From Actinomycetota bacterium (GTDB lineage Bacteria > Actinomycetota > Actinomycetes > Nanopelagicales > Nanopelagicaceae): 64,000 nucleotides of DNA. Within the stretch, counting starts at the first letter, position 1, and each line of letters opens with the position of its first letter. The notes beneath the pieces were generated by a model. It searched no databases, was not told the DNA's origin, and saw nothing but the letters and a program-made list of their open reading frames with translations. The stretch covers positions 1-64,000 of the forward strand of contig SYEK01000006.1 in assembly GCA_005800815.1 (NCBI GenBank), written 5' to 3'. The translations under genes were made by a program, and so were the position numbers. This document shows, piece by piece, positions 48,221-51,671 of this stretch.

Positions 48221-49528
48221 ATGGAGCAAGAGGTACAACCAGTGCCTTTACTGGTGCCCCAGGGTGGCACCCCTCCAGTCATCGATAGCGATGAGGCTTT
48301 AAAGAGAGCTCTCCAGGAGTTATCTGCAGGAACCGGTCCGTTCGCAGTCGATGCCGAGCGTGCCTCTGGATTTCGCTACAGTGCCAGGGCGTATCTCATA
48401 CAGATAAAACGCCATGGTGGAGGTCTTCATCTCATCGATCCGATCCCCTTCGGTCTCAACAATGTGCTCATGGCATCTCTTAATGATCTTCTCAATAGCG
48501 ATGAGATCATCCTGCATGCAAGCACCCAAGATCTTGCCTGTCTTCGTGAGCTTGGATTGGAGCCACTGCATCTTTTTGATACCGAGCTGGCAGGGCGTAT
48601 CGCAGGCCTACCCAGAGTTGGACTTGGGCCTCTCCTTGAGTCAGTGATGGGAGTCAGCCTTGCCAAGGAGCATAGCGCTGCCGATTGGTCAACGCGCCCT
48701 CTCCCCCAAGAGTGGCTCACCTATGCGGCTTTAGATGTCGAACTCCTTATCGAACTTCGTGATGCCATGTATGCACTCTTGAGCGCTGGGGGGAAATTGG
48801 AGTGGGCCAAGCAGGAGTTCGCAGCAATTCTGAGCGCACCAGCGCCACCACCGCGAGTAGATCCATGGCGGCGCACATCTGGAATGCACAAGATTAAACG
48901 CCGTGATCAGCTGGCCATCATCCGTGAACTATGGATGACACGTGATGGCCTTGCCTCAGGGCTCGATATTGCGCCAGGGAGACTTCTGAATGATTCGGCG
49001 ATTATTGGGCTCTGCTTGGCTGCGCCTACAACTAAAAAAGAGTTCGAGAAGGCTCTTCGACCTATCGGCCTGCGCCCCCGCTGGTTAGAGCACCATACGA
49101 TTTGGCTCGAGGCCATCGCTCGCGCCGTTGCAATTCCTGAGCAAGAGTGGCCGCCTACTCGCAGCACCACGGATTCACTCCCTGCGATGAAACTGTGGCG
49201 CGAGAAGTTTCCAGAAAAGTTCGCACCCTTTTCCCATGCCCGCGCCCTTATCGAAGTGATCGCCACTGAAAACTCGATTCCAGTAGAAAATCTCATCTCT
49301 CCTGAATACATACGTCGCATCTGCTGGTCACCACCCGTGGGCTCAACGCAGGAGCATGATGAACCGGGCGTGCGTGCCATGCTGCAGGGCCTTGGTGCTC
49401 GCCCGTGGCAGATAGAGCTGGTAGCCCCGGCAGTGGCCAAGGCCCTGCTCAAGCATGAGCCCTTGCAGATGCCCAAGACCCCAGAGGGGGCTGAAGCTGT
49501 GAGCAAAGAGATAGGAGAGCAGGGCTGA
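48221..49528 (+). CDS. rnd: Ribonuclease D-like 3'-5' exonuclease with HRDC domain
   Basis: A 435-residue DEDD-type exoribonuclease. The N-terminal nuclease domain starts with FAVDAERASGFRY (Asp44, Glu46), continues with LHASTQDLACL and ends with the YAALDVELL motif; an HRDC domain follows (about 225-300, HKIKRRDQLAIIRELW). By family it trims tRNA and other small RNA 3' ends. It begins 9 bases after DUF3000, so they share an operon. Its stop touches the inverted repeat before efeU. Confidence 0.92.
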   Translation: MEQEVQPVPLLVPQGGTPPVIDSDEALKRALQELSAGTGPFAVDAERASGFRYSARAYLIQIKRHGGGLHLIDPIPFGLNNVLMASLNDLLNSDEIILHASTQDLACLRELGLEPLHLFDTELAGRIAGLPRVGLGPLLESVMGVSLAKEHSAADWSTRPLPQEWLTYAALDVELLIELRDAMYALLSAGGKLEWAKQEFAAILSAPAPPPRVDPWRRTSGMHKIKRRDQLAIIRELWMTRDGLASGLDIAPGRLLNDSAIIGLCLAAPTTKKEFEKALRPIGLRPRWLEHHTIWLEAIARAVAIPEQEWPPTRSTTDSLPAMKLWREKFPEKFAPFSHARALIEVIATENSIPVENLISPEYIRRICWSPPVGSTQEHDEPGVRAMLQGLGARPWQIELVAPAVAKALLKHEPLQMPKTPEGAEAVSKEIGEQG

Positions 49529-49555
49529 TTTACGCAACGAAAGAGTTGCGTAAAT
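49528..49555. promoter_or_regulatory. Perfect 11-bp inverted repeat at the efeU promoter, candidate operator
   Basis: The arms are ATTTACGCAAC (49528-49538) and GTTGCGTAAAT (49545-49555), with GAAAGA between. Relative to the predicted efeU start they cover about -53 to -26, across the -35. No T-run follows the right arm, so it is unlikely to be a terminator. It does not resemble Fur or DtxR/IdeR boxes. Confidence 0.6.
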
Positions 49556-49568
49556 AGGAGGCCGGGAT

Positions 49569-49574
49569 TAGGCT
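49569..49574 (+). promoter_or_regulatory. Leaderless -10 of efeU
   Basis: TAGGCT ends 6 bases before ATG 49581. A AGGAGG at 49556-49561 is 19 bases from the start, too far to be its ribosome site. Confidence 0.55.
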
Positions 49575-49580
49575 TCAAAC

Positions 49581-50411
49581 ATGCTGAGCACTTTCATCAT
49601 CGCCCTTCGAGAGGGGCTAGAGGCCTCTCTCATCGTTGGAATTCTTGTCGCCTATATCTACAAGACCCAGCGCACCAGCTATTTAAGGCCTTTGTGGGTG
49701 GGTGTGGCCGCTGCGATAGTTGCAAGTCTGGGCCTTGGCGCATTCCTCTCCTTCACCTCGGTCTCATTGAGTGATCGGGGCCAAGAGTTGTTCGCAGGTA
49801 TCACCTCTTTCGTTGCAGTAGGACTTGTCACGTGGATGGTTTTTTGGATGAAGCGAACAGCTCGAACCCTGCGCAGTAATCTGCATGGCAAGGTAGATGC
49901 TGCGGCAGGCACTGGACCGATAGCGATTGCCGCAGCAGCCTTTGTCGCTGTCATCCGAGAGGGTCTTGAAACCTCCCTCTTCGTCTATTCGAACTTTCAA
50001 AGCGTTGCAGACACTACGAGCTCTGCCGTTGGGCTTATTTTAGGTTTTTCCCTCTCCATCACCCTTGGCTATTTAATCTATAAGAGCGCCGTAAAGTTAG
50101 ATCTCTCCAAGTTCTTCACCTACACAGGAGTTGCACTCATCATCGTTGCAGCCGGAGTTCTCTCCTATGGAGTCCATGAGTTCCAGGAGCTCGGCTTCTT
50201 ACCCGGGCCTGATGCCTTTGTCTGGGATGTGACCTCATTTATCGCCAAAGATTCGATCTTGGGCGCATCTCTCTCTGGAACAATCGGTTTTGATACAACA
50301 ACCTCATGGTTACAACTTGGCATCTATGTCGCATACTTGAGTGCCGTCTTGACTCCGTATCTATCAAAATCCTCGCAGAAAGCCCCCACCAAGGCCCCTG
50401 TTTCAGCCTAG
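49581..50411 (+). CDS. efeU: FTR1-family iron permease (EfeU-like)
   Basis: A 276-residue membrane protein with seven predicted helices and two copies of the iron-binding REXXE motif: REGLE at 10-14 and again at about 123-127, both within helices. It takes up iron, usually ferrous iron after oxidation or with partner EfeO and EfeB. Neither partner is nearby, so it may act alone or with distant genes. It is inserted between rnd and the thiolase gene, which normally lie closer together. Confidence 0.92.
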   Translation: MLSTFIIALREGLEASLIVGILVAYIYKTQRTSYLRPLWVGVAAAIVASLGLGAFLSFTSVSLSDRGQELFAGITSFVAVGLVTWMVFWMKRTARTLRSNLHGKVDAAAGTGPIAIAAAAFVAVIREGLETSLFVYSNFQSVADTTSSAVGLILGFSLSITLGYLIYKSAVKLDLSKFFTYTGVALIIVAAGVLSYGVHEFQELGFLPGPDAFVWDVTSFIAKDSILGASLSGTIGFDTTTSWLQLGIYVAYLSAVLTPYLSKSSQKAPTKAPVSA

Positions 50412-50480: not shown

Positions 50481-51671
50481 ATGACGCGCAGAGTTGTATT
50501 GGTCGATGCAGTTCGTACCCCATTTGGTAAAGCCGGCGGAATGTATGCAGGAACCCGCGCCGATGATCTTATGGTCCGTGCAATCCGAGGTTTGCTCGAG
50601 CGCAATCCCAGCATAGATCCAGCGGCAATAGAAGAAGTTGCGATAGCTGCAACCACTCAGACCGGTGATCAGGGAATGAACATCGGCCGAAGCGCGGCTC
50701 TTCTCTCAGGTCTTCCAAACACAGTACCTGGCTATTCGATTGATCGCTGGTGCGCAGGTGCCTTAACTGCCGTCACAACCATCGCTGGGGCGATCGCAAT
50801 GGGCATAAATGAGATTGCAATCGCAGGTGGCGTAGAACATATGGGTAACCATCCAATGGGTGAGGGTCTAGATCCAAATCCACGTTACTTATCTGAGCGT
50901 ATCGTCGACCAGGATGCACTGGCCATGGGTGCAACGGCCGAGCGTCTCCATGATCGCTTCCCGCAGTTGACGAAGGAGCGCAGCGATCGATATGCCATGA
51001 ACTCCCAGCTTAAAACTGCCAAGGCATATTCGCAGGGAAAGATTCAAAGAGATTTGATCCCTACTGCGGCGCGAAGCGCCGAACTGGGCTGGACCGTTGC
51101 CACTATGGATGAGGCCCCTCGCCCACAGACAACCATGGAGGGCTTATCTGGTCTTAAGACACCCTTTCGTACCGCAGGCCGCGTCACACCAGGCAACTCC
51201 TCTGGATTAAACGATGGCGCAACAGCTGCACTCCTTGCAAGTGAGGAGAGGGCAAACGAGCTTGGCTTAACTATCAAAGCCAAGATGGTCACCTTCGCAT
51301 TTGCCGGCGTTGAGCCTGAGATTATGGGATACGGACCAGTTCCATCGACACTCAAAGCACTCAAGCAATCTGGATTGAAAATTGAAGATATCGGCGCATT
51401 TGAGATTAATGAGGCCTTCGCTGTTCAAGTACTTGCCTTCCTCGATTACTTTTCCATTCCCGATGATGACGCTCGTGTTAATCCTTACGGTGGAGCCATC
51501 GCCGTTGGACATCCACTTGCATCCTCAGGTGTACGTTTGATGCTCAACTTAGCACGCACCTTCGAGGCCCAACCTGAGGTTCGTTATGGGATCACAACCA
51601 TGTGCATCGGTCTTGGTATGGGTGGCACCGTCATCTGGGAGAACCCTCACTTTAAGGCAGGCTCCAAGTAA
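50481..51671 (+). CDS. fadA: Acetyl-CoA C-acyltransferase (thiolase)
   Basis: A 396-residue thiolase that cleaves 3-ketoacyl-CoA in the last step of beta-oxidation. The acyl-accepting cysteine is Cys91 (DRWCAGALTA), GHPLASSG carries the catalytic histidine, and CIGLGMGG the second cysteine. Length is normal. GGGGAG lies before ATG 50481. fadJ starts directly after its stop, so the two subunits of the complex are co-translated. Confidence 0.95.
   Translation: MTRRVVLVDAVRTPFGKAGGMYAGTRADDLMVRAIRGLLERNPSIDPAAIEEVAIAATTQTGDQGMNIGRSAALLSGLPNTVPGYSIDRWCAGALTAVTTIAGAIAMGINEIAIAGGVEHMGNHPMGEGLDPNPRYLSERIVDQDALAMGATAERLHDRFPQLTKERSDRYAMNSQLKTAKAYSQGKIQRDLIPTAARSAELGWTVATMDEAPRPQTTMEGLSGLKTPFRTAGRVTPGNSSGLNDGATAALLASEERANELGLTIKAKMVTFAFAGVEPEIMGYGPVPSTLKALKQSGLKIEDIGAFEINEAFAVQVLAFLDYFSIPDDDARVNPYGGAIAVGHPLASSGVRLMLNLARTFEAQPEVRYGITTMCIGLGMGGTVIWENPHFKAGSK

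Follow-up and report, generated by a model that had tools for sequence, protein, structure and literature searches.

In the window (the whole 64,000-nucleotide stretch of DNA analyzed here), a gene for an rnd-like 3'-5' exonuclease is followed by a gene for an FTR1/EfeU iron permease, and between the two lies a perfect inverted repeat whose 11-bp arms flank a 6-nucleotide spacer, ATTTACGCAAC-GAAAGA-GTTGCGTAAAT (Table 1). The first base of the repeat also closes the rnd stop codon (TGA, 49526-49528), and a gap of 25 bp separates the end of the repeat from the ATG of FTR1, relative to which it occupies positions -53 to -26. The permease scores 320 bits against the NCBIfam EfeU model, for which the cut-off is 255. 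An earlier note, made from the sequence, had placed a perfect inverted repeat with 11-bp arms at about -53 to -26 of efeU, lying over the -35 element, followed by no T-run, and unlike Fur or DtxR boxes. All of these observations held: the repeat spans exactly 49528-49555, its right arm holds the predicted -35 element TTGCGT, a terminator scan was empty as well, and we agree that the sequence does not resemble a Fur or DtxR box.

Table 1. Positions of the features at the rnd-FTR1 locus, of the sufR gene in the same genome, and of exact core matches at iron genes of other Actinomycetia
Feature	Position	Strand	Remark
rnd-like 3'-5' exonuclease, upstream neighbour, outside the switch	48221..49528	+	DNA_pol_A_exo1 and HRDC domains
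Predicted SufR operator, whole inverted repeat	49528..49555	.	Conserved core 49530-49553, TTACGCAAC-N6-GTTGCGTAA
CAAC-N6-GTTG, published SufR recognition sequence	49535..49548	.	Sequence; PMC8593673, PMC11995493, PMC13421787
Predicted -35, TTGCGT	49546..49551	+	Inside the right arm of the predicted operator; 17 bp from the -10
Predicted -10, TAGGCT	49569..49574	+	6 nt before the ATG; TAnnnT conserved
FTR1/EfeU iron permease, proposed regulated gene	49581..50411	+	Pfam FTR1 PF03239, 8e-55; NCBIfam EfeU
SufR gene	G000:C35:51162-51788		sufB lies next downstream, then more genes ordered as in suf
Exact match, Arthrobacter	L162		Before an ABC ATPase gene
Exact match, Arthrobacter	L233		Before a binding-protein gene, then a FecCD-like permease (by sequence)
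Exact match, Promicromonosporaceae	L174		Before a Peripla_BP_2 protein gene
Exact match, Demequina	L201		Before FecCD
Exact match, Timonella	L229		Before FeoB

A window-wide search at up to 3 mismatches gave no further match to the repeat, and the genome (1.285 Mb in 37 contigs) contains a single full copy. By its length alone, the repeat is unusual, not extraordinary: first-order Markov sequences of the size of the window yielded four such repeats in 30 simulations, or approximately 0.13 per window, so that other evidence is needed, and one other place in the window holds a repeat of this length. It is conservation that marks the repeat as non-random. Half-arms are not enriched in the genome, with counts of 33 and 28 compared with 29 and 30 in controls, and hence the genome does not hide a large regulon built on this exact arm.

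Within the family, the core was found within 3 mismatches in all 67 distinct FTR1 promoters. Alignment was possible for 66 of them; the core hardly varies at any position and the 6-nucleotide spacer is variable, with the site ending 27 to 29 bp before the start codon in 64. Across the order, the motif (at most 2 mismatches) occurs in 278 of 296 genomes and in all 17 genera, while a reversed control pattern was found in only a few genomes of the order. The FTR1 promoter was missed by a scan for the generic sigma-70 consensus, and support for this promoter comes from conservation as well: in each of the 64 FTR1 promoters of standard spacing, a TAnnnT sequence is located 6 to 7 nucleotides before the start codon, and the right-arm TTGCGT (rare variants allowed) is located 17 to 18 bp upstream of it. 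With this conserved -10/-35 geometry, the FTR1 promoter is probably leaderless, in which case the repeat would lie outside the FTR1 mRNA and a protein bound to it would cover the -35 element.

In GTDB, the exact core is found mainly in records of Candidatus Planktophila, Nanopelagicales, and freshwater actinobacteria. Among the GTDB matches listed, 69 of the 80 exact matches belong to FTR1 or ferric ABC genes, five others, all from elsewhere in the Actinomycetia, stand before FeoB, FecCD, or binding-protein/ABC genes (Table 1), and one (L171) lies at a contig edge. A DtxR-like sequence with 4 to 6 mismatches to the consensus is found within approximately 50 bp of the site in four of the five matches from other Actinomycetia. 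The five listed exact matches whose record titles are nonactinobacterial or unspecified are at chance level, as approximately four are expected in 257 Gb by calculation, and were discarded. Also not counted as support were the sites of family f20 (L129-L144), which are less symmetric, follow a different consensus, and have a geranylgeranyl-reductase-like FAD gene downstream; at position 1501, these loci contain a conserved palindrome that is related but distinct, roughly TTACGCA(G/T)C-N6-GTTGCG(T/A)AA. Two further observations were made: nearly every genome of genus g35 (family f19, with large genomes) has exactly one SufR-like motif match at up to 2 mismatches, and a one-mismatch site at position 2999 of L070 (G074:C154) is located near a contig end, before no recognized iron gene, in a genome that also has the FTR1 site.

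The association of the site with iron uptake is not limited to FTR1. The rnd gene was located in genomes lacking FTR1, and its downstream neighbour was compared with the presence of the site. The site is absent in the seven genomes in which rnd is followed by a thiolase gene, and it is present at the seven loci where rnd is followed by a gene for a ferric-iron ABC binding protein, which matches solved ferric-iron-binding proteins at 1e-77. Without rnd, the site is found before a ferric ABC transporter (10 loci), before a divergent FTR1 gene (3 loci), and before an NRAMP gene (L105). The presence of the site thus varies with the iron genes, and the site is tied to iron uptake, no matter which transporter is used or which gene precedes it. 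The operator reading passed the comparison with relatives that the earlier note had named as a test: the repeat is retained at FTR1 promoters and is absent where rnd precedes a thiolase gene. The region upstream of the thiolase (fadA-like) gene has a conserved palindrome of its own, TTACTGGCGAGTAA, located 24 to 107 bp 5' of the gene at L089, L091, L095, L003, and other loci. This palindrome was found, with one mismatch allowed, in 48 of 73 upstream regions of relatives and was not found in the window; it resembles an operator for a regulator of fatty-acid degradation.

The centre of the repeat, CAAC-N6-GTTG, is the published operator sequence of SufR (PMC8593673, PMC13421787), and PMC11995493 reports the same sequence for Streptomyces avermitilis SufR. 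SufR, a winged-helix protein with a [4Fe-4S] cluster, represses the suf operon (PMC8593673, PMC13421787, PMC6034842). A second site, TTACGCAAC-N6-GTTGTGAAA, occurs in many relatives, and all eight of the second sites that were fetched are located between divergent ctaA and sufR-sufB genes, over the start of sufR. An additional sufR-promoter site was found at L101, and three more motif sites were found at sufR in another family of the class. According to PMC11995493, the SufR site of S. avermitilis overlaps the -10 sequence AACAAT and ends on the transcription start. The site at L062, CAACAATACTGTTG-TG, likewise carries AACAAT, placed six bases ahead of what may be a leaderless GTG start of sufR, which matches the leaderless start reported for Rv1460 (PMC6034842).

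A sufR gene heading the suf genes is also present in the genome under study. The encoded protein matches the NCBIfam model TIGR02702 (SufR_cyano) at 6e-22 and 78 bits, below the curated cut-off of 178.8; since this model was built on cyanobacteria, the failed cut-off weakens only the claim of a cyanobacterial equivalog. The SufR sequence had no match in the PDB. A helix-turn-helix is present. Across 12 SufR sequences, four cysteines never vary, and three of these have the spacing C-x12-C-x27-C, which is the spacing of residues C203, C216, and C244 that were mutated in a study of Rv1460 (PMC6034842). The site at sufR in this genome (TTACGACACACTAGTGTTGTGAAA; L081, position 2615) has 4 mismatches to the FTR1 core and no perfect CAAC-N6-GTTG, and this putative operator, weaker than those of the relatives, is a real weakness of the case for SufR in this species. 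From its usual start, the sufR frame reads through this site as R-(N/H)-T-S-V-V-K (L081, 2597-2640; G000:C35, about 51096-51139). The true sufR start is probably the downstream GTG, and the automatic annotation is therefore likely too long.

Two Fur-family proteins are encoded in the genome. One is closest to 3mwm/2o03 and is of the Zur type, with its gene adjoining znuBC-like genes, and the other is closest to 3eyy, which was deposited as a putative iron uptake regulatory protein and which we take to be Nur of S. coelicolor. The DtxR DNA-binding domain (PF01325) was absent from this genome in a search that does find it in C. glutamicum, and it scores above the cut-off in only 4 of the 121 genomes of the family, all of genus g6. 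In the one FTR1 promoter of this genus that was read (L077), a DtxR box, GTAGGTTAGGCATACCTAA, is present and the SufR site is shifted to -95. Near the site in L002, no match to a TTAGGTTAGSCTAACCTAA-like DtxR/IdeR box was found at up to 6 mismatches. In Corynebacterium, DtxR has been placed above sufR (PMC6701010).

Taken together, the data make it very probable that the repeat is an operator for SufR, from which SufR would repress FTR1. The site, its conservation, its motif shared with sufR, and its tracking of iron genes are seen directly in the sequences; SufR binding, repression as the direction of control, and cluster sensing are inferred. The earlier note had proposed the operator of an undescribed iron-linked regulator; the operator and its link to iron stand, and the regulator is most likely one that has been described, SufR, with an undescribed target. 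In the mechanism we propose, a holo-SufR dimer would sit across 49530-49553 when iron and Fe-S clusters are plentiful. As the right arm contains the -35 element, bound SufR would cover it and exclude RNA polymerase from the predicted leaderless FTR1 promoter. Upon iron shortage or cluster damage, SufR would lose its cluster and leave the operator, and FTR1 iron import and suf cluster assembly would then rise together.

The alternative that survives best, although it is improbable, is that another, undescribed iron-linked regulator, such as a Nur-like Fur protein, shares the motif. The genome does encode a Fur-family protein that is neither Zur-like nor a canonical Fe-Fur, and the difference at four positions between the sufR and FTR1 sites of this genome would also fit. 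However, the core published for SufR is part of the motif, which is found again at sufR-sufB in different genera. Furthermore, Fur proteins have short-gap palindromes as operators, and the site described here, 24 bp long with 9-bp arms and a 6-nucleotide gap, is unlike these. Slightly less probable still is that SufR acts at this promoter as an activator, from a class II position, rather than as a repressor. The centre of the site is approximately 39.5 bp upstream of the predicted transcription start and the -35 element TTGCGT is poor, both of which would suit activation, but SufR has been reported to be a repressor (PMC8593673, PMC13421787, PMC6034842), and if holo-SufR were to activate the gene at times of cluster plenty, iron uptake would respond in the wrong direction.

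That the repeat is instead an RNA hairpin or terminator shielding the 3' end of the rnd mRNA, a possibility also raised in the earlier note, is very unlikely. While the repeat starts at the rnd stop codon and its 11-bp stem folds at -13.8 kcal/mol, the site is missing behind rnd when no iron gene follows, is present at iron genes with no rnd nearby, and recurs at sufR. The scan for terminators found no GC-rich stem with a T-run and no terminator-like site at the repeat, and an Rfam search gave no match. In addition, many changes in the arms among the 64 promoters break pairs, giving A-A at one position nine times and C-T at another five times, and no compensatory change occurs in the 18-position core, the only one being in the flanking outermost-but-one pair (A-T to T-A in four promoters). 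Arm changes that break pairing without compensation indicate that the repeat is not an RNA hairpin. Finally, a chance palindrome, for which the simulated frequency of repeats of this length might speak, can be dismissed in view of the near-invariance across 17 genera and the fixed distance to the start codon.

Beyond the operator itself, we lean toward the view that DtxR/IdeR was lost in the Nanopelagicales and that SufR took over as the main regulator of iron uptake, with iron gauged mainly via the Fe-S supply. The change would have started from an ancestral dual control, a SufR site together with a DtxR box, which can still be seen in a single genus as well as at iron genes elsewhere in the Actinomycetia. 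That SufR is the sole or main iron regulator in these bacteria is plausible, and it is less certain than the operator assignment. SufR is a known regulator; the literature searched, which was incomplete, connected SufR with neither a bacterial FTR1 permease nor the Nanopelagicales, and neither the FTR1 target nor the apparent loss of DtxR was found in it, so that novelty is provisional. In lakes, the acI/Nanopelagicales actinobacteria belong to the most abundant bacteria, and no iron regulator for them was found in the same literature. SufR can now be named as a candidate, with a predicted regulon of two to three operons that ties iron import to Fe-S demand. This suggests that SufR control extends beyond cluster assembly to iron uptake, and it offers an example of the replacement of an iron sensor during genome reduction in which the intermediate state is still present.

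Among known systems, the sufBCDS/sufR operator of Synechocystis PCC 6803 has the same CAAC-N6-GTTG core and spacing, the same regulator family, and the same iron/Fe-S logic, but the arms described here are extended and conserved (TTACG...CGTAA). The known targets of cyanobacterial SufR are the suf genes and, in PCC 7942, ftrC, which encodes ferredoxin-thioredoxin reductase and not the FTR1 permease, whereas the target proposed here is an iron permease. In its working, the proposed switch is also similar to RirA, an Fe-S cluster regulator of the Rrf2 family that represses iron uptake in rhizobia; RirA belongs to an unrelated protein family with an unrelated operator, and the SufR switch is not a member of that system. 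S. avermitilis SufR, M. tuberculosis Rv1460, and C. glutamicum SufR head the suf operon as SufR does here. The site over the sufR -10 or start and the cysteine spacing are shared with these systems, and a leaderless sufR may be shared with M. tuberculosis. They differ in that their operator has been described for suf autoregulation and iron uptake is under DtxR/IdeR control. The other target genes of C. glutamicum SufR are stated to be not known (PMC11995493), and the Rv1460 ChIP-seq targets listed in PMC6034842 include no iron transporter. The DtxR/IdeR box, through which iron uptake genes of Actinomycetia are usually controlled, differs from the SufR site in sequence and answers to a sensor of ferrous iron; it is absent from the promoter described here and accompanies the SufR site in the single genus with DtxR retained.
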